A DNA stretch of 40,596 nt, taken from a virus. Below, piece by piece: positions 1 through 40,596 of this stretch. Made by a program: the position numbers and the translations under genes. A model generated the notes under the pieces. That model made no database searches, was not told the origin of the DNA, and saw nothing but the letters and a program-made list of their open reading frames with translations. The stretch spans positions 1 through 40,596 of the IMG/VR virus record IMGVR_UViG_3300046167_000087; one strand, 5' to 3'. The stretch's first letter is position 1. Every line of letters starts with the position of its first letter.

Positions 1-145
1 TTCCCTTATGATAAATCTTATACCATTGTCACATATTTGCCACAGATTATACAAAAGTAAATACATTCAGTTGACAGGGGGCTAAATCTTATCGTAATAT
101 CTACAGAGGTGACAGGGGGTGCACGGGGTATCCTGTTGTATGTAC
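1..145. repeat. Left copy of 145-bp direct terminal repeat
   Basis: These bases are identical to 40452-40596 at the other end of the window. Podoviruses of the T7 type carry short direct terminal repeats of comparable size (160 bp in T7), so this is best read as the physical genome end. The repeat holds two copies of the 10-mer TGACAGGGGG at 72-81 and 110-119, and a possible weak rightward promoter (TTGACA at 71-76, TAATAT at 95-100). An assembler overlap would produce the same picture, so the physical end is inferred. Confidence 0.85.
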
Positions 146-200
146 AATGCACCTCAAGATTTTCTATATATTTTTCTAGGGATGCCAAAGTAGTCTTCTC

Positions 201-240
201 AAAAAAGAAACCCACCGAAGGATTTACCTAGGGTGGGCTT
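201..240 (-). terminator. Leftward intrinsic terminator near the left end
   Basis: Read on the minus strand, AAGCCCACC (240-232) pairs with GGTGGGTTT (216-208), giving nine pairs with one G-U. An inner AGG/CCT closes a small loop, and a run of six T (206-201) follows. The T run exists only in the leftward direction; rightward there is just CTTTACAG. It would end transcripts starting at the consensus promoter at 414-442. Confidence 0.75.
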
Positions 241-407
241 TACAGTAGAATCTGAACGTGTCCTTAAGCTTTACGGTAGTTTACCAATACCATAGTACAA
301 TGTGGTATAGAGTAACCGTAATAGACCAAGGGATTATACGTTATACTAACAGGAGATACCTTGGTATACTTATAGTATATACATATATAGGCTGCCTCCG
401 CAGCTAT
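201..407 (-). ncRNA. Candidate structured small RNA, about 206 nt, leftward
   Basis: A perfect sigma70 promoter (414-442, minus) should start RNA near 407, and a strong intrinsic terminator should end it near 201. No convincing protein gene lies between. Read 5' to 3' on the minus strand, the RNA begins with a hairpin GCTGC-GGAG-GCAGC (404-391) that displays a Shine-Dalgarno-like loop. Next come a palindrome around 370-385, a stem ACCAAGG/CCTTGGT joining 365-359 with 331-325, and a composite hairpin (TTACGGT/ACCGTAA with inner TAC/GTA and ATACCA/TGGTAT, 321-271). The terminator hairpin is last. The function is unknown. It could be a trans-acting RNA, a replication primer, or the attenuated leader of an early transcript in concatemeric DNA. 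Transcription itself is inferred from the sequence signals. Confidence 0.5.
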
Positions 408-413
408 AATGGA

Positions 414-442
414 ATTATACACACAATTACCACCCCTGTCAA
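414..442 (-). promoter_or_regulatory. Perfect-consensus leftward sigma70 promoter
   Basis: On the minus strand there is a -35 TTGACA (442-437), a 17-nt spacer and a -10 TATAAT (419-414). The predicted start is near 407. It diverges from the rightward promoter at 482-511. On the linear genome it faces the nearby left end, so it can only make a short transcript unless the ends are joined. Its -35 lies inside TTGACAGGGG, the same sequence that is present in the terminal repeat. Confidence 0.75.
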
Positions 443-481: not shown

Positions 482-511
482 TTGACAAATATATTACACT
501 CGTGGTATACT
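482..511 (+). promoter_or_regulatory. Rightward sigma70 promoter for the small terminase gene
   Basis: TTGACA at 482-487, an 18-nt spacer and TATACT at 506-511. The predicted transcription start (about 518) coincides with the first ATG of the small terminase gene at 519, so that mRNA may be leaderless. No Shine-Dalgarno sequence is visible before the ATG. Confidence 0.75.
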
Positions 512-518
512 AACTTTT

Positions 519-1046
519 ATGATGTACCAATACGAAAACTTTAAAGGATCTAACGGTAAGACAAAAACCAAAAGTTTGTTTTATGAGTTATGTTATTCAG
601 ATACCGAAGATGCTATCTTTACACTTAAGGATAGGGACTTAGAGGCTCACGGCAAGATGTACTTGTCATTACAGAAGCTATACCTACAGTTAGCTCCATC
701 TGATCCAACTGAGTATGAGTTTGCTCAGACAGTCTTCGGTTCATGGGATATATGGAAGACGGTATCATCCGCAGCTAACATAAAGGTACATGTAGCCAGA
801 TGGAGAAGTGAAGTTGAGGTCAAGGTCAAGTCAGAGGCTATAAAATCAATAGCTGAAGAGATGAAGACAAAAGGCAGAAGTTCCTTTAGTGCAGCCAAGT
901 TATTATTAGATAAGGGTTGGTTAGACAAGGAGAATGCTTCTCAGGCTAAACAGAAGTTAAAAGCTAAAGAAGATGAAGATCAAAACAAACAGGCTTTGTC
1001 ACATCTTACAGAAGATGCTGAACGCCTAGGTATTAAGGTGAACTAA
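519..1046 (+). CDS. terS: Terminase small subunit
   Basis: A 175-aa protein that would recognise phage DNA and recruit the large terminase to start packaging at the procapsid portal. It has the layout I know from podovirus small terminases: an N-terminal KTKSLFYE...YSDTEDAIFTLKDRD stretch (about residues 15-45), then EYEFA and W-rich segments (65-95), and a charged, Lys-rich C-terminal helix. Two ATGs occur in a row (519 and 522). The promoter at 482-511 starts RNA almost at the first, so translation may be leaderless. It opens the late block but lies 6.2 kb from the large subunit, with the fibre genes in between. Identification rests on remembered sequence pattern. Confidence 0.7.
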   Translation: MMYQYENFKGSNGKTKTKSLFYELCYSDTEDAIFTLKDRDLEAHGKMYLSLQKLYLQLAPSDPTEYEFAQTVFGSWDIWKTVSSAANIKVHVARWRSEVEVKVKSEAIKSIAEEMKTKGRSSFSAAKLLLDKGWLDKENASQAKQKLKAKEDEDQNKQALSHLTEDAERLGIKVN

Positions 1047-12619: not shown

Positions 12620-12648
12620 TTGACAGAAGTTTAAAACTACGGTATAAT
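12620..12648 (+). promoter_or_regulatory. Perfect sigma70 promoter for the tail/internal-protein genes
   Basis: TTGACA (12620-12625), a 17-nt spacer and TATAAT (12643-12648), an exact consensus. It starts two bases after the capsid terminator's tail. The RNA would begin near 12655, giving a leader of about 44 nt with GGAGAG before the ATG at 12699. It restarts transcription for head decoration, tail and internal virion genes. Confidence 0.85.
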
Positions 12649-12698
12649 ATATTTACCTTGGCAGGGCCAGTAGTATATACCCCTACGGAGAGATAACA

Positions 12699-32907: not shown

Positions 32908-33966
32908 TTAGTGAGTGTCCTTCCAGTTACGTCCGATGTCAGTTGACCCTGCTAATGGGCATACCATATTAAACTTCTCTCCTATGTCAACAAAAGATTG
33001 ACGTTGCATAGCACCTAGTTCCTCAGCTGTTGCATAATTACCACACACTTCAGTCTGCCATTCATCATGAGGCCATGTGACAAGCTTAAAGTCTATACCT
33101 TTATCCTTAGCTTGACGTACCCATTGTAGTGCTGAGTGTTTCATGATGACAGACTCACCATTCTGCAGCATACCTGCGAGTGTCTTATGTTCAGATGGTA
33201 CTAGAACCTTACGTCCATCCATACCTTTGAACCAACCTCGTTTAGCTATGTGTGGTATGACTTTTTTCTTTAGGTTAGCAAGTCCTTGGATTGATTCCAT
33301 AAAGTTCTCGACACATTGACTAGCCTCACGTTGATTGACACGTAGTATCTGAGCTATCTTACCTGTACCTGCCCCTAGTAGGAATGCATAGATGAAAGTC
33401 TTAGCATCATCTCTTGTTATGTGTGACATACCTAATGCTTTCTTGTTCAGGTTGTGTATGTCAGTCTCGTTCTCTTTCTTACCTGACACAATAGCATCCA
33501 CATATTCTTCTGACTTCATTAGATGTGCAAGTACTCGCAGCTGAATCCCTTCAGCATCCGTACCCACTAGGTAGTTACCTTTCTCAACACCCCATAAGGC
33601 ACGGAACTGTCCATCGTATCTATGCTTAACCTCTTCCACAGCTGACTTAGGTGTACCGTGAAACTCAGATGGTATGTTAGCTTGGTTAGGTGCTGAGTGA
33701 GCCATACGTCCTGTCCATGCCCCAATGTGTGTGAACCTACCATGTATTCGGTGGTCATCACCACAATGTCCTAGCCATTCAACCAAAGATGATCTCCTAC
33801 CTTCAAGTGTCAACCACTCAGCTAATCTTTTGCCACCTGCAGGGGCTTCATCAGGTAGTGTCTCAAGGTTAGCTTCAGATAATGTCCAACCATAACGTGC
33901 AAACTTATCTCCACGATCTCTGTTTTTGTTCTCTATCATATTGTATGTGTCCCTTTGTTTTCTCAT
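32908..33966 (-). CDS. DNA polymerase, polymerase part
   Basis: A 352-aa open frame. Motif A is VGTDAEGIQLRVLAH (D137), the O-helix is RDDAKTFIYAFLLGAG (R165, K169, Y173) and motif C is PHDEWQTEV (H300, D301, E302). Y173 corresponds to T7 Y526 / E. coli F762, and L177 replaces the tyrosine of T7 Y530 / E. coli Y766. The first ATG has no ribosome binding site, supporting a frame break rather than a separate gene. Confidence 0.8.
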   Translation of the reverse strand: MRKQRDTYNMIENKNRDRGDKFARYGWTLSEANLETLPDEAPAGGKRLAEWLTLEGRRSSLVEWLGHCGDDHRIHGRFTHIGAWTGRMAHSAPNQANIPSEFHGTPKSAVEEVKHRYDGQFRALWGVEKGNYLVGTDAEGIQLRVLAHLMKSEEYVDAIVSGKKENETDIHNLNKKALGMSHITRDDAKTFIYAFLLGAGTGKIAQILRVNQREASQCVENFMESIQGLANLKKKVIPHIAKRGWFKGMDGRKVLVPSEHKTLAGMLQNGESVIMKHSALQWVRQAKDKGIDFKLVTWPHDEWQTEVCGNYATAEELGAMQRQSFVDIGEKFNMVCPLAGSTDIGRNWKDTH

Positions 33967-34819
33967 ATGGCTGCCAACCAGCTTCCCATAGTCTTTCTAT
34001 TCTCATCTTAGGTGATGCTGGATTAAACTCTATCCAATCGTAGCACACTAAGTCGGGTGGGTTAGCTGACCAATCAACTGTTGTCTTAAAGTATTTCTCT
34101 TGTGCTTTCTTTACACTTGACATAACAGTACCATCCTTTTTCTTTCGGTACTTAATCCTGTTCACCTCTTCTAATTGTGGTGGGAAATCACGTTGGAAAC
34201 TTTCAGTTAGTTCTATCATGCGTAGCTCAACCTCATCCAAGAGGTGTTCAGCTTTATCTTTCTCGAAGTAGAACCCTGCGTCTGTCATCTCTTCACATAA
34301 GATCTGTATGTCATGTTCACATTTGATAGCATCCTGTAGATCAGGGTCAAAGATACTAGACTTAAACTTATTGTATAGTCTAACTGTAACCTCAACATCC
34401 TGATGACAATAGTCAATCATCTCTTGTGTCAATACTTCGAACTGATCAAACCCAATCTTAAACTCACCTAGCCTTTGACCCCATGCCTTGAGACTGTGAC
34501 CACCCTTGATGCTGTAGTCTATAAGCCTTGACATAATCAATGTGTCAATGACATCAGTTGGTTTAATAATCTCAGGGTATGCTATGAGTAAGGGGTTCAG
34601 CAGCTTGTTTATTACTTTAACATCGAACCCTATCCCATTGTGAAATACGAACTTATCTGTTTGTTGACACAGTAAGTAGAAGGCTTCTCTCTCTTCAGGT
34701 ATGGTACAAACATTAAGGAACTGGTACTTCTCATTGGTGTCAACATCCTGAGCACAGATGACATGTATCTTAGTAGCATCCAATGCGTCAGTCTCAATGT
34801 CCATTGCTAATATTTTCAT
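32908..34819 (-). CDS. DNA polymerase, family A, whole gene (two frames)
   Basis: The gene encodes a T7 gp5-like polymerase of about 637 aa, but in two overlapping frames joined near 33920. The first frame reads DREQKQRSWR-stop and the second begins upstream in frame (IENKNRDRGDKFARYGWTLS). Dropping one A from the A5 run at about 33924-33928 would give a continuous DREQNRDRGDKFA. Proofreading and polymerase motifs are all intact. It replicates the genome with the primase-helicase and SSB. The split may be a consensus error, a +1 frameshift site or two true subunits. Confidence 0.85.
33905..34819 (-). CDS. DNA polymerase, 3'-5' exonuclease part
   Basis: 304 aa from the ATG at 34819, which overlaps the upstream stop as ATGA; an upstream in-frame ATG at 34876 is less likely. 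It has Exo I MKILAMDIETDA (D-x-E), Exo II FHNGIGFDVKVIN, and Exo III YCHQDVEVTVRLYN (Y-x3-D). It ends out of frame near its stop. As a separate product it would be a stand-alone proofreading exonuclease. Confidence 0.8.
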   Translation of the reverse strand: MKILAMDIETDALDATKIHVICAQDVDTNEKYQFLNVCTIPEEREAFYLLCQQTDKFVFHNGIGFDVKVINKLLNPLLIAYPEIIKPTDVIDTLIMSRLIDYSIKGGHSLKAWGQRLGEFKIGFDQFEVLTQEMIDYCHQDVEVTVRLYNKFKSSIFDPDLQDAIKCEHDIQILCEEMTDAGFYFEKDKAEHLLDEVELRMIELTESFQRDFPPQLEEVNRIKYRKKKDGTVMSSVKKAQEKYFKTTVDWSANPPDLVCYDWIEFNPASPKMRIERLWEAGWQPYEKTKGHIQYDREQKQRSWR

Positions 34820-35028
34820 TCGTAATCCCTGTCTTGCCATGTAGCCCATAAACATAGAGCTAATTCCCAAGGCCATATGATAGCTTTCATTCTCATAGTT
34901 GTAGTATTCCTAGGTGCTTCAAGTATTATGTGTATCGTATTCATCAGTATGTAATGGTTAACAATACCCACAAAATAAATGCATGCTGCTATGTAAACTA
35001 AAGGATCATATTCTAATAGTTCTTGCAT
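34816..35028 (-). CDS. Small membrane protein between helicase and polymerase
   Basis: A 70-aa protein with two hydrophobic stretches (PLVYIAACIYFVGIVNHYIL, about residues 9-28, and IIWPWELALCLWATW, about 50-64). Its ATG overlaps the primase-helicase stop and its TGA overlaps the polymerase ATG, so translation is coupled. It could tether the replisome to the membrane, but no family is recognised. Confidence 0.5.
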   Translation of the reverse strand: MQELLEYDPLVYIAACIYFVGIVNHYILMNTIHIILEAPRNTTTMRMKAIIWPWELALCLWATWQDRDYE

Positions 35029-36656
35029 CAGTACTCTCCATATTTTTCTGACAGAGTAAAGCTATCTGTATTGAAAGTCAACTGACCTGCATATCCTGTC
35101 GGTCCAACTGGTCTGTTCTTTGTGACAAGAAGTTTGGTTGTATTTCTTTCATCAATATCTTCTGACATCTTATCTCGTTGTAACTCAACAACAACTGATG
35201 CTCTTTGCTCTATCATACGGCAATACTTAACAGCACCATCATCATTGGTATGTCCGATTGTTACAATGCCAACACCTAACTCAGCAGCTAACTTAGATAG
35301 CCTGACAGATAGATCAGCTAGGAATTGTTCTTTGCTTTCATCACCACCCATGTTAGCTGCAATATCTTGGATAGGTTCAAAGAATATATACTGAACACCA
35401 CATGCTTGTGACAAATACCTGATGTGTCCTAGTATATCTATAGGGTCATCCTCATCATTCAAGAAGAACTGATATAGTCTCTCATCTTTGGTTAGCTTAA
35501 CGATAGCATCATGTACTTTCTGTTCAGCACTAGCCTGAGCTATGAGATCCTTACGTGTCAGGTTATCCTTTAGTTCGTATGACACCAACCCAAGTAGTGA
35601 TCTAAGTTTTGTCTCTTCCATATGCCAAGCTGCAATGCTTATCTCAGGGTGCTTGGTAAGTATGTGGTACTCTAAGTATCTCATGAACTCAGTCTTACCT
35701 ATACCTGTTTGTGCCTTGAACAAGGTGAAGTGACCCTGCATCAGACCCATACATAAATCATCGAACTCTTGTACCCCTGTCTCGACATACACATGGCTCT
35801 CACTATTGTTATACATCTTAAGGAACTGATCTGATGTATTGATTATGTTCTCAGGTGTATACTTCTTAGCATTGAACCATGCATTATAAAATTCATTACG
35901 AGCACCTGCCTCTAGGAACTCATTAGCATCTTTGTATTTGTCATGTTGTACCCTGTATACTTTGTTAGGGTATAGGTTAGCTATCCTTTGTGCTACAGCA
36001 TTCCCTTGTTCATCATGTTCAATGGATAGTATGATCTTCTCGAATGATCCTAACCAATCTGCTGCTTTAGTCCAAAGTTTATTCGATGGTGTAGCTGATG
36101 GTAGTGACACAAAAGCTGATGAATACTTAGTTGAATTACACATTTGGTATGCTGACATAGCATCTAGTTCACCCTCAGTTATGGTGACAATCTTACCTGA
36201 CCCAGCATTCCAATGGTTCATACCGAATAGTTCATCTGACTTAAGGTTGGTAGCTCTAAATTCTTTTGGAAAAAATCTAGTCTTTATACCACCTGAAGGG
36301 TATGGGTATTCTTGCTTCACCTCTTTACCATTGCTGTCAAGGTATGTCTTAACACCATAGAACTGCATAGTCTCTCTGCTTATTGATCTTACTGACCTGT
36401 ACACTGATGTTAGTACTTCGGTAGGTACAGGTTTAATCTGCGTTTGTTGTGGGTTCATATCCCATCCATCCTTTTGCTCTTGCCCCATTACAGGGTATGT
36501 TTCTTCTGCCCATTCGAACTTACTATCTTTAGTCCTAGGATAAACTCTTTCGCAGCTATGACACCTGCCTGAACAGCTCTCAGTATTGTAGCTGAAGGCA
36601 TCTGTGCTGCCACAGTCCTCATATGGACATTCCTTATGGCTTAACCAATTACTCAT
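35028..36656 (-). CDS. Primase-helicase (T7 gp4-like)
   Basis: 542 aa from the ATG at 36656, which overlaps the upstream stop (ATGA); an earlier in-frame ATG adds five residues and is unlikely. It has an N-terminal zinc-binding domain (C10, C15, C32, C35), a TOPRIM-type primase with VTITEGELDAMSAY, then a RecA-like helicase with Walker A AQTGIGKTEF, FFLNDEDDPIDIL, and VTIGHTNDDG. It unwinds DNA and lays down primers at the fork. The length matches gp4 (566 aa). Confidence 0.93.
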   Translation of the reverse strand: MSNWLSHKECPYEDCGSTDAFSYNTESCSGRCHSCERVYPRTKDSKFEWAEETYPVMGQEQKDGWDMNPQQTQIKPVPTEVLTSVYRSVRSISRETMQFYGVKTYLDSNGKEVKQEYPYPSGGIKTRFFPKEFRATNLKSDELFGMNHWNAGSGKIVTITEGELDAMSAYQMCNSTKYSSAFVSLPSATPSNKLWTKAADWLGSFEKIILSIEHDEQGNAVAQRIANLYPNKVYRVQHDKYKDANEFLEAGARNEFYNAWFNAKKYTPENIINTSDQFLKMYNNSESHVYVETGVQEFDDLCMGLMQGHFTLFKAQTGIGKTEFMRYLEYHILTKHPEISIAAWHMEETKLRSLLGLVSYELKDNLTRKDLIAQASAEQKVHDAIVKLTKDERLYQFFLNDEDDPIDILGHIRYLSQACGVQYIFFEPIQDIAANMGGDESKEQFLADLSVRLSKLAAELGVGIVTIGHTNDDGAVKYCRMIEQRASVVVELQRDKMSEDIDERNTTKLLVTKNRPVGPTGYAGQLTFNTDSFTLSEKYGEY

Positions 36657-36898
36657 AATATTTGATCCCAATAATCTTGTGTAAACATATCTAAAATGAC
36701 CTGTATTTCTTCAGGTGTCAAGGTGGTAAGCTTAACGATCTCTCTATCTTCATTGTCATATAGTTCTGTGATAGCAAACTCTGGTTCTTTATCTACAATG
36801 AAATGGTGGTCATCCCAGTAGCCAGAACCGTCATCCCAAACCTGTCCAAAGACTTCAAGTTCTTGCTTGCCTCTTCTTATGTATGCTCTGTAATCCAT
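36653..36898 (-). CDS. Hypothetical protein upstream of primase-helicase
   Basis: An 81-aa protein. It is acidic: MDYRAYIRRGKQELEVFGQV, then WDDGSGYWDDHHFIV and LTPEEIQVILDMFTQDYWDQ. The C-terminal helix could be an interaction surface. Its TGA overlaps the primase-helicase ATG, suggesting coupled expression and perhaps a replication role. No family is recognised. Confidence 0.55.
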   Translation of the reverse strand: MDYRAYIRRGKQELEVFGQVWDDGSGYWDDHHFIVDKEPEFAITELYDNEDREIVKLTTLTPEEIQVILDMFTQDYWDQIL

Positions 36899-36947
36899 TT
36901 AATTTATTTTCCCTCTTGACAGATTAAATAATGTTGATACCCTAGGG

Positions 36948-36962
36948 CTTGTCCCTGACAAG
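36948..36962 (-). other. Short inverted repeat upstream of the 81-aa gene
   Basis: CTTGTC and GACAAG pair over a CCT loop in the gap between the 52-aa gene ending at 36974 and the gene starting at 36898. No T run follows in the direction of transcription, so it is more likely an operator or mRNA structure than a terminator. Confidence 0.35.
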
Positions 36963-36973
36963 GGTTCTATAGG

Positions 36974-37132
36974 TTAATTACGGTATGTCTTACCACCATT
37001 AGTTAAAGATATAAGATACTCTTTATTCTCTTGCTTCTCGTGGTCAGATATTTCTTTATCCAACCACTCAGCATCATCTATCTCTTTGATTAATTCATTG
37101 TGGTATCTATGTAATGGTTTAGATTTCATCAT
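36974..37132 (-). CDS. Small hypothetical (52 aa)
   Basis: It has two successive ATGs (37132 and 37129) with a strong GGAGGA directly upstream. The protein is charged and helical: SKPLHRYHNELIKEIDDAEW, then LDKEISDHEKQENKEY, ending TNGGKTYRN. It overlaps the upstream gene by 14 nt. It is shorter than usual calling limits, but the binding site and packing support it. Confidence 0.6.
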   Translation of the reverse strand: MMKSKPLHRYHNELIKEIDDAEWLDKEISDHEKQENKEYLISLTNGGKTYRN

Positions 37133-37277
37133 AGTCCTCCTCCCAACTCTTAATATGTTTAATACCCTTCACCTTATCTAGTGACGAACTCACATAAGTT
37201 TCTAACGTAGCTCTATTATAGCTGCAATAAGTTTGTATTAACTTACCATTTCTATCATATGTCTTAACTCTATACAT
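37119..37277 (-). CDS. Small hypothetical (52 aa)
   Basis: The ATG at 37277 overlaps the upstream stop by 8 nt. The sequence MYRVKTYDRNGKLIQTYCSY then ATLETYVSSSLDKVKGIKHI resembles the small beta-beta-alpha proteins common in phage early regions. It ends EEDYDEI inside the start of the next gene. The function is unknown. Confidence 0.55.
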   Translation of the reverse strand: MYRVKTYDRNGKLIQTYCSYNRATLETYVSSSLDKVKGIKHIKSWEEDYDEI

Positions 37278-37509
37278 TTAGTAGTTCCCTTTCATCTGTG
37301 TATAAATCCATATAGTCTAGTCGTTTACTGTCAACATCACCATAATCAATCATGTACTCGTACACTTTGCCATCGTCTAGCTCTATGTATAACGTACCCC
37401 ATTTGTCATAGACGTGCCGTATATCTTCACCTGTCTTACCTTCTGGCAATTCTATCTCAGCATACGCCGCAACTGTATAGCACCCTTCCAAACTTATCTT
37501 ATTACTCAT
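37270..37509 (-). CDS. Small hypothetical (79 aa)
   Basis: The ATG at 37509 is preferred because it overlaps the upstream stop (ATGA); an earlier in-frame start adds five residues. The protein is beta-rich and acidic: GCYTVAAYAEIELPEGKTGE, DKWGTLYIELDDGKVYEYMI, ending DLYTDERELLNV. No family is recognised. It is one of a run of small early genes of the kind that often modify host functions. Confidence 0.55.
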   Translation of the reverse strand: MSNKISLEGCYTVAAYAEIELPEGKTGEDIRHVYDKWGTLYIELDDGKVYEYMIDYGDVDSKRLDYMDLYTDERELLNV

Positions 37510-37667
37510 TTTATTAACTCCCATACTGTATTGATTGTAAAACTAAACGTAAACATAACACCAATAAATGCAAACCATAAAACTGAATAGACAAATGCTG
37601 TCATAAGTTTCTCTTTACGTTCCTCATCTCTTTTATATTTATCTACATTAAAATATTTGTTACTCAT
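37506..37667 (-). CDS. Small membrane protein (53 aa)
   Basis: The ATG at 37667 overlaps the upstream stop (ATGA). A charged N-terminus (NKYFNVDKYKRDEERKEKL) is followed by one transmembrane segment (AFVYSVLWFAFIGVMFTFSF). It would sit in the inner membrane with its N-terminus in the cytoplasm. The role is unknown. Confidence 0.55.
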   Translation of the reverse strand: MSNKYFNVDKYKRDEERKEKLMTAFVYSVLWFAFIGVMFTFSFTINTVWELIK

Positions 37668-37867
37668 TTTGCTACCCTTTCTTTTACCCAAAGTCTTTTG
37701 AGTTTGTTATTCTTGCCACCTATAGCACCTGTAGCCTGTCTATTCTTTTGTGCAGTCCACTGGTCACCTTCTTTATAATTGCGTATGTTAAAAACTTCAC
37801 GCATTCTTTTATTTTCTTGCTTGCATACTGTTTCATGAGCAAGTCTTAATCTATCTTGAACATCCAT
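37664..37867 (-). CDS. Small basic hypothetical (67 aa)
   Basis: A good ribosome binding site (AAAGGAG) lies before the ATG. The protein is basic and helical at first (DVQDRLRLAHETVCKQENKR), then QWTAQKNRQATGAIGGKNNK and LKRLWVKERVAK. It could bind nucleic acid by charge. No family is recognised. Confidence 0.55.
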   Translation of the reverse strand: MDVQDRLRLAHETVCKQENKRMREVFNIRNYKEGDQWTAQKNRQATGAIGGKNNKLKRLWVKERVAK

Positions 37868-37978
37868 TTAAATTTCTCCTTTTTCTAATATACTTGTTAC
37901 TTCGTATGTAAGGTTGTCAATAAGGTCATAAACATCTTGTGGTGCATGATACTCAAACGGTTGCCAATGATACTCCAT
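37868..37978 (-). CDS. Micro-protein (36 aa)
   Basis: The frame runs from the ATG at 37978 to a TAA next to the following gene's start and contains that gene's AGGAG binding site at its end. The protein starts MEYHWQPFEYHAPQDVYDLI and ends LEKGEI, acidic and aromatic. A GAAAGGGAAA sequence upstream serves as its binding site. It fits exactly between its neighbours, which is the main support. Confidence 0.5.
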   Translation of the reverse strand: MEYHWQPFEYHAPQDVYDLIDNLTYEVTSILEKGEI

Positions 37979-37982
37979 TTAA

Positions 37983-38165
37983 TTATTTCCCTTTCTCTAA
38001 ATATATTTCTACACTGTTAACTTTATACCCACAATAAAGACATTTCTTTCTACGTTTAATTGATGGGTATCCTAATTTAAAATAGTCTCTTGTGTCAATT
38101 ACTTTAAGCTTACGCATATATGATTTGACTAAACACTCAGGACAATAGCTTAAAGATTTATTCAT
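37983..38165 (-). CDS. Small zinc-ribbon protein (60 aa)
   Basis: Two C-x-x-C pairs, CPEC (residues 8-11) and CLYC (42-45), are separated by a basic stretch (MRKLKVIDTRDYFKLGYPSI, KRRKK), the layout of a zinc ribbon that binds nucleic acid or protein. It is upstream of the replication genes. It may be a small transcription or host-takeover factor; the target is unknown. Confidence 0.6.
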   Translation of the reverse strand: MNKSLSYCPECLVKSYMRKLKVIDTRDYFKLGYPSIKRRKKCLYCGYKVNSVEIYLEKGK

Positions 38166-38331
38166 CCTCTTGTATCCTATCTCTTAATTCATTTGACAAA
38201 GTTTTGCATAGCTCTGCAATTCTATAGAGTTCTTTCTCTATGTCAGCTTGCGTTTCAAAATTACATGAAACAATTTCTAAGCATGAAATTTCTATGTCTG
38301 TTAAATTCATTATTATATCTTTATCAATCAT
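38158..38331 (-). CDS. Small acidic helical protein (57 aa)
   Basis: The ATG at 38331 lies within the 21-bp repeat that also ends the methyltransferase gene, with AAGGG from that gene's last codons as binding site. The protein MIDKDIIMNLTDIEISCLEI, then FETQADIEKELYRIAELCKT, ends RDRIQEDE. It overlaps the next gene by 8 nt. The function is unknown. Confidence 0.55.
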   Translation of the reverse strand: MIDKDIIMNLTDIEISCLEIVSCNFETQADIEKELYRIAELCKTLSNELRDRIQEDE

Positions 38332-38348
38332 TTTATTTTATCCCTTTT
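38328..38348. repeat. 21-bp direct repeat, copy 1 (3' side of methyltransferase)
   Basis: Identical to 39097-39117. Read on the minus strand it contains, in order, AAAAGGGATAAA, the stop TAA of the methyltransferase gene and the ATG of the next gene. The two copies bound the methyltransferase as a neat one-gene cassette of 769 bp per unit. Confidence 0.9.
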
Positions 38349-39100
38349 AGTATAAATTCTATTACAGGTATTGTCCAACCATTACCAATCATTTTGTATC
38401 TCTGTGAATTACTAACACCACTGGTATAATTTTTAGGTATACCCTGCAGCATTTCACATTCATTAGGAGATAGCTTGTCTTGTTTGTTCTCAGATTTTAA
38501 TGGTACATTGTGACCACCTGTTCCCATGTTAGCAGTCAAACAAGGTGACACCCCTGATTTATTCTTTCTATAATAAGTCCTACGCCATTGATAAAAGTCA
38601 CCTTTCCAATCAGGTCTATCAGGTAATTCACCTAATGGAATATTAGTCCAGTAATATCTTTTTCTATTCTGTTGTACAAACCTATCAGAATTTATCATGA
38701 TAGGTTGCACCCCTAGTTGTTCAGATATTATATCTAAACTTTCTTTATTCATGTTGACGTTTTCCAATAAGAAATACTTAGGTTTTAATTTTTTTAGTAG
38801 CCTAACATATTCAAAGAATAACTTTGACCTTGGATCATCAAAGTTTAATTCTTTACCACCATTGGCACGACTAAAACCTTGGCATGGACTGCCACCAATC
38901 AATAAATCTATGTGTGACAAATTTGCTGCACAAACTTTTGTGACATCTCCGACATCAATTGTATCAGGAAAGTTTTTATCCCTTACCTTGATTGCATACT
39001 TATCTATTTCACTAGCATAATATTTACTTGGTTTAATACCAATATTATTTAAGGCAATTTGTCCACAAGATAGACCATCAAATAAACTTAATACATTCAT
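38333..39100 (-). CDS. DNA cytosine-5 methyltransferase
   Basis: A 255-aa enzyme that moves a methyl group from S-adenosylmethionine to cytosine C5 in DNA. It has motif I LSLFDGLSCGQIAL (4-17), motif IV GGSPCQGFS with catalytic C73, motif VI LLENV (111-115), motif VIII QNRKRYYW, and motif X YKMIGNGWTIPVI near the C-terminus. The target recognition region (about 165-225) is short. No partner restriction gene is visible, so it is an orphan that may protect phage DNA from host restriction or alter transcription. It is flanked by identical 21-bp repeats, a sign of acquisition or exchange as a cassette. Confidence 0.92.
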   Translation of the reverse strand: MNVLSLFDGLSCGQIALNNIGIKPSKYYASEIDKYAIKVRDKNFPDTIDVGDVTKVCAANLSHIDLLIGGSPCQGFSRANGGKELNFDDPRSKLFFEYVRLLKKLKPKYFLLENVNMNKESLDIISEQLGVQPIMINSDRFVQQNRKRYYWTNIPLGELPDRPDWKGDFYQWRRTYYRKNKSGVSPCLTANMGTGGHNVPLKSENKQDKLSPNECEMLQGIPKNYTSGVSNSQRYKMIGNGWTIPVIEFILKGIK

Positions 39101-39117
39101 TTTATTTTATCCCTTTT
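39097..39117. repeat. 21-bp direct repeat, copy 2 (5' side of methyltransferase)
   Basis: Identical to 38328-38348. On the minus strand it covers the last codons and stop of the preceding 104-aa gene, the AAGGG binding site and the methyltransferase ATG. Both genes thus end in the same four residues (KGIK). Confidence 0.9.
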
Positions 39118-39416
39118 GTTGTTACGAATTCTAATAGTTCTTTAAAGCTATCTGTTGCGAGTAACTCAGGGCTTTCATCTGTAACCAATCCATTGTAGAA
39201 ATCTGAATTGAACACTGTAAATCTTGGAGGCAATGCATCGCCAACGCCTAGCCCATATATATCATGAGCATTTGCTTGACGTTCTGTTGTGTGGTGGCTA
39301 TCTATCCAAATGTGCAAACCATTGACTTGATAGCTTGGCAATGCGTCATTATTATAGCTAGTGCATTTCCAATTGTTAGGGATGTCTAGATCAGTTGTGT
39401 ATGTATTCCAATTCAT
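39102..39416 (-). CDS. Early hypothetical with IWIDSH motif (104 aa)
   Basis: It has the core NGLHIWIDSHHTTERQANA (about residues 32-50), related to the NIWIDTHKQTVEGHWW of the 129-aa protein encoded upstream. It is followed by YGLGVGDALPPRFTVFNSDF and an acidic C-terminus (DESPELLATDSFKELLEFV). The two genes share a 19-nt leader segment, so they are probably an old duplication. The function is unknown. Confidence 0.6.
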   Translation of the reverse strand: MNWNTYTTDLDIPNNWKCTSYNNDALPSYQVNGLHIWIDSHHTTERQANAHDIYGLGVGDALPPRFTVFNSDFYNGLVTDESPELLATDSFKELLEFVTTKGIK

Positions 39417-39418
39417 TT

Positions 39419-39437
39419 TATTTCTCTTTCTGTTTTA
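39419..39437. repeat. 19-nt leader repeat, copy A
   Basis: Identical to 39878-39896. On the minus strand it reads TAAAACAGAAAGAGAAATA and ends three bases before the ATG of the 104-aa gene, acting as its ribosome binding region. The same leader also has ATTGGTGTCA (39481-39472), which is present in copy B's leader (39929-39920). Confidence 0.8.
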
Positions 39438-39485
39438 AGTTTAGTATTATCTAGTGCCACTCGTTAGTGAATGACACCAATAATA

Positions 39486-39875
39486 TTAAATACAATTAAA
39501 TAATTCTTCACTTGCGTTGTCAATGTCCATTTCATCCCTATAGTATGAAGCTGTAAAGCTATCACCCCACCAATGACCTTCAACTGTTTGTTTGTGGGTA
39601 TCAATCCATATATTAGGACCACCAAAAGCTACTAACAATCTAGAACCTAAGTATTCATTAGAACTATTAACAATGTAGTTTGTTTCCATTGTATCTTTAA
39701 TGTAATCCCAACCACTCATTATTTTGTTTACATCAGTACCACACTCACATTCTTTATAGTATTCATCTTCCGACCAGATCGTGTGAGTTCCACACTCAGG
39801 GCAACAATCAGTTTCATACCCATTCTCAATATCTTTTACGATTGATAGTACATGTTCTTTTACTGAGCTTGTCAT
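39486..39875 (-). CDS. Early zinc-ribbon hypothetical with IWIDTH motif (129 aa)
   Basis: An N-terminal helix (TSSVKEHVLSIVKDIENGY) is followed by a zinc ribbon CCPECGTHTI ... ECECG (about residues 24-46). The C-terminal part, LLVAFGGPNIWIDTHKQTVE then GHWWGDSFTASYYRDEMD, is related to the 104-aa neighbour and to a family I recall in phage early regions. It probably binds nucleic acid or protein. The role is unknown. Confidence 0.6.
   Translation of the reverse strand: MTSSVKEHVLSIVKDIENGYETDCCPECGTHTIWSEDEYYKECECGTDVNKIMSGWDYIKDTMETNYIVNSSNEYLGSRLLVAFGGPNIWIDTHKQTVEGHWWGDSFTASYYRDEMDIDNASEELFNCI
39495..39523 (-). promoter_or_regulatory. Possible leftward promoter ahead of the 104-aa gene
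   Basis: On the minus strand TTGACA (39523-39518), 17 nt, TTTAAT (39500-39495), start near 39488. It would give a leader of about 70 nt carrying the ATTGGTGTCA and AAACAGAAAGAG elements. It lies partly in the 3' end of the preceding gene. Confidence 0.45.
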
Positions 39876-39877
39876 AT

Positions 39878-39896
39878 TATTTCTCTTTCTGTTTTA
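39878..39896. repeat. 19-nt leader repeat, copy B
   Basis: Identical to 39419-39437, two bases upstream of the 129-aa gene's ATG on the minus strand. Further upstream a hairpin TTGGCATCA / TGGTGTCAA (39942-39920) can form, with nine pairs including two G-U, and it includes the shared ATTGGTGTCA element. Confidence 0.8.
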
Positions 39897-39949
39897 GGTT
39901 ATAAAGTTAATTCTACAATTGACACCAATAGTTGATGCCAATGTTAAAG

Positions 39950-40144
39950 TTAACTATTTCTATAATCTGAGAATTCACAATCAATAAATGCCATCTCTTT
40001 TAAATCTTTCCCAAAGAATGTCACGTCATTTCTATTATCGTTTTCATCTAATATTGATAATGTGATTGCTATTGTTCCAGTGTCTTGAATGCTTATTCTT
40101 TTTGTTATGCTTTTTACTCTGTGAATTGATACCATAGTTGTCAT
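39950..40144 (-). CDS. First early gene, small hypothetical (64 aa)
   Basis: It is the most upstream gene of the leftward block. TAGGA lies nine bases before the ATG. The protein is beta-rich: TTMVSIHRVKSITKRISIQD, then TIAITLSILDENDNRNDVTF, and acidic at the end (DCEFSDYRNS). First-expressed small phage proteins often act on host functions, but nothing in the sequence identifies a target. Confidence 0.55.
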   Translation of the reverse strand: MTTMVSIHRVKSITKRISIQDTGTIAITLSILDENDNRNDVTFFGKDLKEMAFIDCEFSDYRNS

Positions 40145-40451
40145 TTGATTAAATCCTAATTGTTTAAGTTGTCCCTATTTATAGTTTTAAAGATTTCAAA
40201 ATGTAAAGAAAAAAGTTTAAATAAATGTAAATTAATTTTAAAGTCCTTGTTTATATGACACAAAGAATATCAAATTGATACAAGACAAGGGATTAGAACC
40301 TAGATAATGACAAATAAATAATGACCAGTAAAAGAATTAATATCGGTGTTATATTATAACTGTATAAACCAAACGTGTCTTTAAGCTTATTACAATTATA
40401 TTTGTCAGTTATTACAAAGGGATAAGACAAAGGTATAATGCTATGGTGTAT
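40145..40451. other. Non-coding upstream region of the early block
   Basis: An AT-rich stretch between the first early gene and the right terminal repeat. It contains the leftward promoter at 40353-40381 and a leader of about 200 nt. The leader holds a nested hairpin: CCTTGT (40245-40250) with ACAAGG (40285-40290) enclosing TATCA-AAT-TGATA (40268-40280). A rightward TATAAT at 40435-40440 has no clear -35. I see no convincing gene here. Confidence 0.65.
40353..40381 (-). promoter_or_regulatory. Leftward early promoter
   Basis: On the minus strand AAGACA (40381-40376), 17-nt spacer, TATAAT (40358-40353). The start would be near 40346, about 200 nt upstream of the first early ATG. With no phage RNA polymerase gene seen, host sigma70 polymerase must start the early genes, and this is the best-placed signal. 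Confidence 0.6.
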
Positions 40452-40596
40452 TTCCCTTATGATAAATCTTATACCATTGTCACATATTTGCCACAGATTA
40501 TACAAAAGTAAATACATTCAGTTGACAGGGGGCTAAATCTTATCGTAATATCTACAGAGGTGACAGGGGGTGCACGGGGTATCCTGTTGTATGTAC
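40452..40596. repeat. Right copy of 145-bp direct terminal repeat
   Basis: Exact copy of 1-145. If it is a true terminal repeat, concatemers join through it and the terminase duplicates it at each cut. It places TTGACAGGGGG at 40522-40532 and a second TGACAGGGGG at 40561-40570 near the right end. Confidence 0.85.

Follow-up and report, generated by a model that had tools for sequence, protein, structure and literature searches.

Short RNAs and transcription at phage genome ends

The packaging RNA (pRNA) of phi29 is a short RNA encoded at a podovirus genome end, and the oop RNA of lambda is a short, terminated, leftward transcript that starts from a strong promoter near the control region and is antisense to a gene. 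In T7, phiOR is the right-end promoter; in T7-like phages, concatemers form after the early genes cease to be needed. Lytic phages, too, encode small RNAs, among them sRNA1 and sRNA2 of PAK_P3 and the band C and band D RNAs of T4 (PMC4933390). In complex with lysozyme, T7 RNA polymerase pauses at concatemer junctions, contacting the terminase and starting maturation (PMC3276506).

The locus described here lies near the left end of the window, by which we mean the whole stretch of DNA analysed: 40,596 bp, one complete linear virus record, of a podovirus. Its predicted product is, like phi29 pRNA, short and encoded at a podovirus genome end, but it matches no Rfam family, the phi29 packaging RNA included, and the window has terminase-type packaging with terminal repeats, whereas phi29 is of the protein-primed type. 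Lambda oop is antisense to a gene; the window RNA, in contrast, overlaps none. It resembles the PAK_P3 and T4 RNAs in being a short non-coding RNA of a virulent phage; while those were found by expression, the window RNA was recognised by conservation and is tied to the terminase cut site, its unusual feature. Like phiOR, its promoter lies near the same genome end (in the early-left orientation) of a terminal-repeat podovirus and reads toward the concatemer junction. T7 uses its own RNA polymerase together with lysozyme and a class II pause, in place of which the window has a host sigma70 promoter and an intrinsic terminator; of the T7-type elements, the end promoter reading toward the junction is present, and a class II pause and a phage single-subunit RNA polymerase were not found, the latter among 28 proteins scanned against PHROGs, a set that holds not all of the small ORFs. 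Transcription by the host sigma70 polymerase therefore fits. The predicted RNA gene is apparently undescribed and absent from Rfam (no match at the gathering threshold or at E up to 1), and the cobavirus paper (PMC6775973) deals with genome ends and terminators in its main text, where neither "promoter" nor "non-coding" occurs as a word.

Affiliation and ends of the phage genome

Genes of the window have their matches in two phages of the genus Veravirus (Cobavirinae, Zobellviridae), CRP-5 of Roseobacter and ICBM2 of Lentibacter, and by its sequence the phage is a Veravirus-like member of the Cobavirinae within the Zobellviridae. The late genes run rightward, starting at 519, and the replication genes leftward, starting at the right end; the DNA polymerase, at 32908-34876, is encoded in two pieces, ORFs of 323 and 352 aa with an overlap of some 60 bases. 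The genome ends and the beginning of the late arm carry the following features:

1-145 and 40452-40596, no strand: left and right copies of a perfect direct terminal repeat of 145 bp
139-165, minus strand: candidate terminase cut-site motif AGAAAATCTTGAGGTGCATTGTACATA, spanning the repeat boundary 145/146, aligned with the mapped ends of relatives
482-511, plus strand: late promoter TTGACA-N18-TATACT, divergent from the RNA promoter and ending 7 bp short of gene 519-1046
519-1046, plus strand: first late gene (phrog_8035), which flanks the RNA unit in all relatives

The inner boundary of the repeat lies at most 3 bp from that of ICBM2, whose genome end was mapped by PacBio reads (PMC6775973), and on this comparison the left end of the window is judged a genuine terminus. 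A motif TTAGAAA(A)TnTTnnGGTGn precedes the boundary; since it is recognisable at the mapped ends of ICBM1, ICBM2, VpV262 (L090) and RIO-1 (L089), in front of the right-end cut, it probably serves the terminase as cut signal throughout the family Zobellviridae. Among 84,980 genomes, no copy was found in bacterial or prophage sequence. In RIO-1, VpV262 and CVT22 the relatives of gene 519 have the large terminase gene nearby, a position that suggested a small terminase; a fold search with the gene 519-1046 product gave no solved match. Because the late promoter ends so close to the ATG of gene 519, the late mRNA may be leaderless in the window; relatives have a longer leader between the two.

The promoter, the predicted RNA and its terminator

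The unit on the opposite strand comprises:

414-442, minus strand: consensus sigma70 promoter TTGACA-N17-TATAAT (12/12), predicted start at about 407
201-407, minus strand: predicted non-coding RNA of about 206 nt
391-404, minus strand: 5' stem-loop GCUGC-GGAG-GCAGC
375-382, minus strand: palindromic box GTATATAC, at +26 of the small RNA
245-263, minus strand: GGACACGTTC mini-stem, then AGATTCTAC, conserved directly before the terminator
201-240, minus strand: intrinsic terminator with a symmetric 2x2 internal loop and a T-run

The consensus promoter pointing to the left end, the nine-pair hairpin with a T-run ending near 201, the GGAG-loop stem at the RNA 5' end and the lack of a convincing gene between promoter and terminator had all been pointed out in the initial annotation, and each held up. 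The perfect promoter sequence occurs twice in the 40.6 kb genome, at 442-414 (-) and 12620-12648 (+), and sites with at most two mismatches number 21 against 9.0 expected; the leftward promoter and the late promoter stand back to back, 40 bp apart. From 407 to 199 the RNA folds at -64.1 kcal/mol (z = -4.06; none of 200 shuffles as good), and with the terminator left out z is about -2.7. The terminator hairpin at 240-208 reads AAGCCCACC-CU-AGG-UAAAU-CCU-UC-GGUGGGUUU, with the T-run at 210-201; nine outer pairs, the internal loop and three further pairs give a fold energy of -18.3 kcal/mol. A simple terminator scan overlooked this hairpin, probably on account of the internal loop.

As in a phage small RNA, an own promoter and an own terminator are present and protein-coding content is absent: closed ORFs on the RNA strand reach 21 aa at most, none there is conserved in relatives, a 52-aa ORF at 264-422 has no Pfam match, and neither a tRNA nor a tmRNA was found. 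A leader peptide was rejected, no ATG being conserved among relatives, and so was a CsrA-type GGA loop, because the loop is lost in a sister lineage that has GCCGC-CAG-GCGGU instead.

Conservation of the unit among relatives

A protein search of IMG/VR with gene 519 gave 23 relatives, whose upstream regions align blockwise through the promoter, the start region, GGACACGTYC-AGATTCT, the terminator and the cut motif. IMG/VR was also searched with the cut motif alone, so that the promoter played no part in the selection. Among the 52 viral contigs obtained in this way, 41 have a TTGACA-class promoter on the same strand, 194-367 nt upstream of the motif, and in all 46 contigs that are long enough a gene 519 relative lies beyond the promoter on the opposite strand. 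This recurrence in one place, between the homologue of gene 519-1046 and the terminase cut motif, is no product of chance. Several of the remaining 11 contigs end too near the unit, and L054 (with a gap), L065 and the L042 group are diverged variants. The -10 box is TATAAT in most relatives and TACCCT in one branch; the RNA spans from about 122 to 269 nt, with a poorly conserved body that varies freely, and the terminator is strong in every representative tested. The initial annotation had expected a promoter-driven small RNA to be conserved in relatives, and promoter, terminator and position are indeed kept across a wide set of contigs. The wider check that it had proposed, for the promoter-hairpin-terminator order in Zobellviridae genomes, was positive for these contigs and showed a similar layout in the distant relative VpV262 (outward promoter at 45546, 11/12; terminator at 45715; then the repeat at 45874). 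From RIO-1 and Siovirus (ICBM1) the unit is absent; it is thus dispensable for the family. ICBM1 has instead a perfect promoter directed into the late genes.

The pairing of the terminator stem is maintained by compensatory change. In the alignment, 90% of cells are paired, with 36 double changes against 12 in shuffles, and the covariation score, 0.508 against 0.193 in shuffles, was reached in none of 500 of them, all slid controls scoring lower; the covariation check that had been proposed for the RNA segment was thus positive at the terminator stem. The symmetric 2x2 internal loop (mostly UU/UU or CU/UC) recurs in many lineages. Three lineages, with different sequences, clearly pair in the 5' stem (about +4 to +17): the window has GCUGC/GCAGC there, the sister group has GCCGC/GCGGU, and CRP-5 along with others has AUCAGCCC/GGGGUGAU. 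In other lineages this stem is weak or missing. Apart from the terminator, contigs outside the group to which the window belongs show weak structure, many z values falling between 0 and -2 once the terminator is left out.

Some words are conserved far beyond what shuffles give: of 18 representatives, 11 have TATATACT, against at most 6 in shuffles, and nine have AGATTCT, against at most 7, counts that are not independent, the representatives being related to each other. AGATTC is predicted to be only partly unpaired (0.18-0.79), and AGATTC/AGAATC words recur in the RNAs of relatives.

The motif around AGATTC/AGAATC (the GGACACGTTC/AGATTCTAC region) stands in two to three copies inside the RNA of L058 and L073. 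GANTC (CcrM) sites are depleted 2.2-fold genome-wide (67 against 146 expected), and a 7-kb part of the early arm, 33544-40596, has none, yet most small RNAs of relatives contain GATTC/GAATC; control by CcrM was set aside as a mere lead, some relatives having no site and the site lying about 156 nt past the start.

A probable 5' module shared with the capsid-region promoter

The second perfect promoter has a leader similar to that of the small RNA:

12620-12680, plus strand: perfect TTGACA-N17-TATAAT behind the major capsid gene, followed by the leader and its GTATATAC box

This leader contains a short 5' stem (statistically weak) and GTATATAC at +19, and the promoter with a similar leader is also found in CRP-5 and ICBM2. 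Since the capsid-region promoter shares it, the 5' module is not specific to the small RNA. GTATATAC follows within 45 nt at the two perfect promoters and at no other of the 117 promoter-like sites, which makes it likely that the box and the 5' stem form a common operator or 5'-end module of both; across relatives, the word is enriched at +17 to +36.

Distance to the cut motif and possible roles

A distance of exactly 20 nt from the end of the T-run to the cut motif is found in 25 of 47 distinct contigs, among which are several terminator sequences unrelated to each other. The window departs from this: a small palindromic insert has left 15 bp behind, and the distance is 35. Insertions of 15-27 bp are tolerated, that of the window included; a spacing of 20 nt is favoured, not strict. 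The insert of about 25 bp (AAGTAGTCnAAGACTACGyCTTCTC), which looks like a tiny mobile palindrome, is left as a remnant at 187-201 in the window, is longer at the same site in L001 (3658) and L016 (3611), and lies inside the RNA in L013 (3715).

We consider it somewhat probable that the element is a lineage-wide small non-coding RNA gene beside the packaging cut, with a product that acts as RNA; its promoter, its terminator, the absence of a gene, its position and its conservation all argue for this. Host sigma70 RNA polymerase would start at 442-414, copy about 206 nt toward the genome end and stop at the intrinsic terminator ahead of the terminase cut site. The small RNA so made would be stable and act in trans, probably through a 3' core consisting of the GGACA-AGATTC segment and the terminator hairpin, and the 5' stem-loop with its GTATATAC box would serve as a stability or control module in common with the capsid-region promoter. 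The terminator would also bar host polymerase from the cut site and the early arm.

It is also conceivable that transcription itself matters and not the RNA, host polymerase being sent toward the concatemer junction and held at the terminator before the cut motif, marking the site for the terminase. The unit always adjoins the cut motif, the exact 20-nt spacing recurs despite unrelated terminators, the length and body of the RNA are variable, VpV262 has promoter, terminator and repeat in the same order, and T7 offers a precedent (PMC3276506). The spacing nevertheless tolerates insertions, RIO-1 and Siovirus have the cut motif without the unit, release at a terminator differs from pausing, and the conserved AGATTC word is unnecessary for a terminator, all of which leaves this a real possibility, though an unlikely one. 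The poorly conserved RNA body, taken with the back-to-back promoters 40 bp apart and a terminator that is strong in all tested representatives, would suit a boundary element too, in which divergent promoter and terminator shield late promoter, cut site and early arm from one another and the RNA is meaningless; we find this distinctly unlikely, as such an element would need no consensus promoter firing into it and neither a conserved 3' word nor a re-formed 5' stem.

The initial annotation had further proposed a topology-sensitive attenuator of the early genes acting across the terminal repeat. The part of the proposal that stands is geometric: in a concatemer the promoter would face the early arm across the repeat, and a GACACGT motif is present on both sides of it. 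The 18-nt motif GACACGTYYRGWTTMTAC occurs exactly twice in the genome, at 245-262 and 40362-40379, both leftward (-); the copies flank the terminal repeat from two sides and are conserved in close relatives, and the pattern GACACGTYY...TAC has two occurrences in the whole genome. The early arm, however, has a promoter-like site of its own:

40353-40381, minus strand: early-arm promoter-like site, overlapping the second GACACGT motif copy at 40362-40379

No general antiterminator pairing, moreover, was seen: in most relatives the 5' arm of the terminator has no competitive upstream partner (-8.5 against -17.8 kcal/mol in the window), and close competitors were seen in CRP-5 and L060 only. On the linear genome, no regulated gene lies downstream on the same transcript, and in T7-like phages concatemers arise once the early genes are no longer needed, so that attenuation appears very improbable. 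The idea that the right end carries a duplicate of the left region was rejected, the local alignment score of 52 being lower than the best shuffles and the 18-nt GACACGT motif being all that the two regions have in common.

Significance for packaging in terminal-repeat phages

The favoured reading, a small-RNA gene, would put a conserved and apparently new RNA gene, common to a group of marine phages of Roseobacter-clade bacteria, where genome maps show an empty gap. Cultured phages with their hosts, ICBM2 on Lentibacter sp. SH36 and CRP-5 on FZCC0040, make it directly testable. Transcription and the cutting of concatemers may be linked as in T7. A tentative and rather unlikely extension is that, in terminal-repeat phages without their own RNA polymerase, a host-polymerase promoter-terminator cassette and its RNA would be part of the packaging signal, transcription that ends at a fixed distance from the cut motif licensing the terminase to cut the concatemer. 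Should the RNA, or its transcription, have a part in packaging, podoviruses lacking an RNA polymerase of their own would have a solution to a step so far known from T7.
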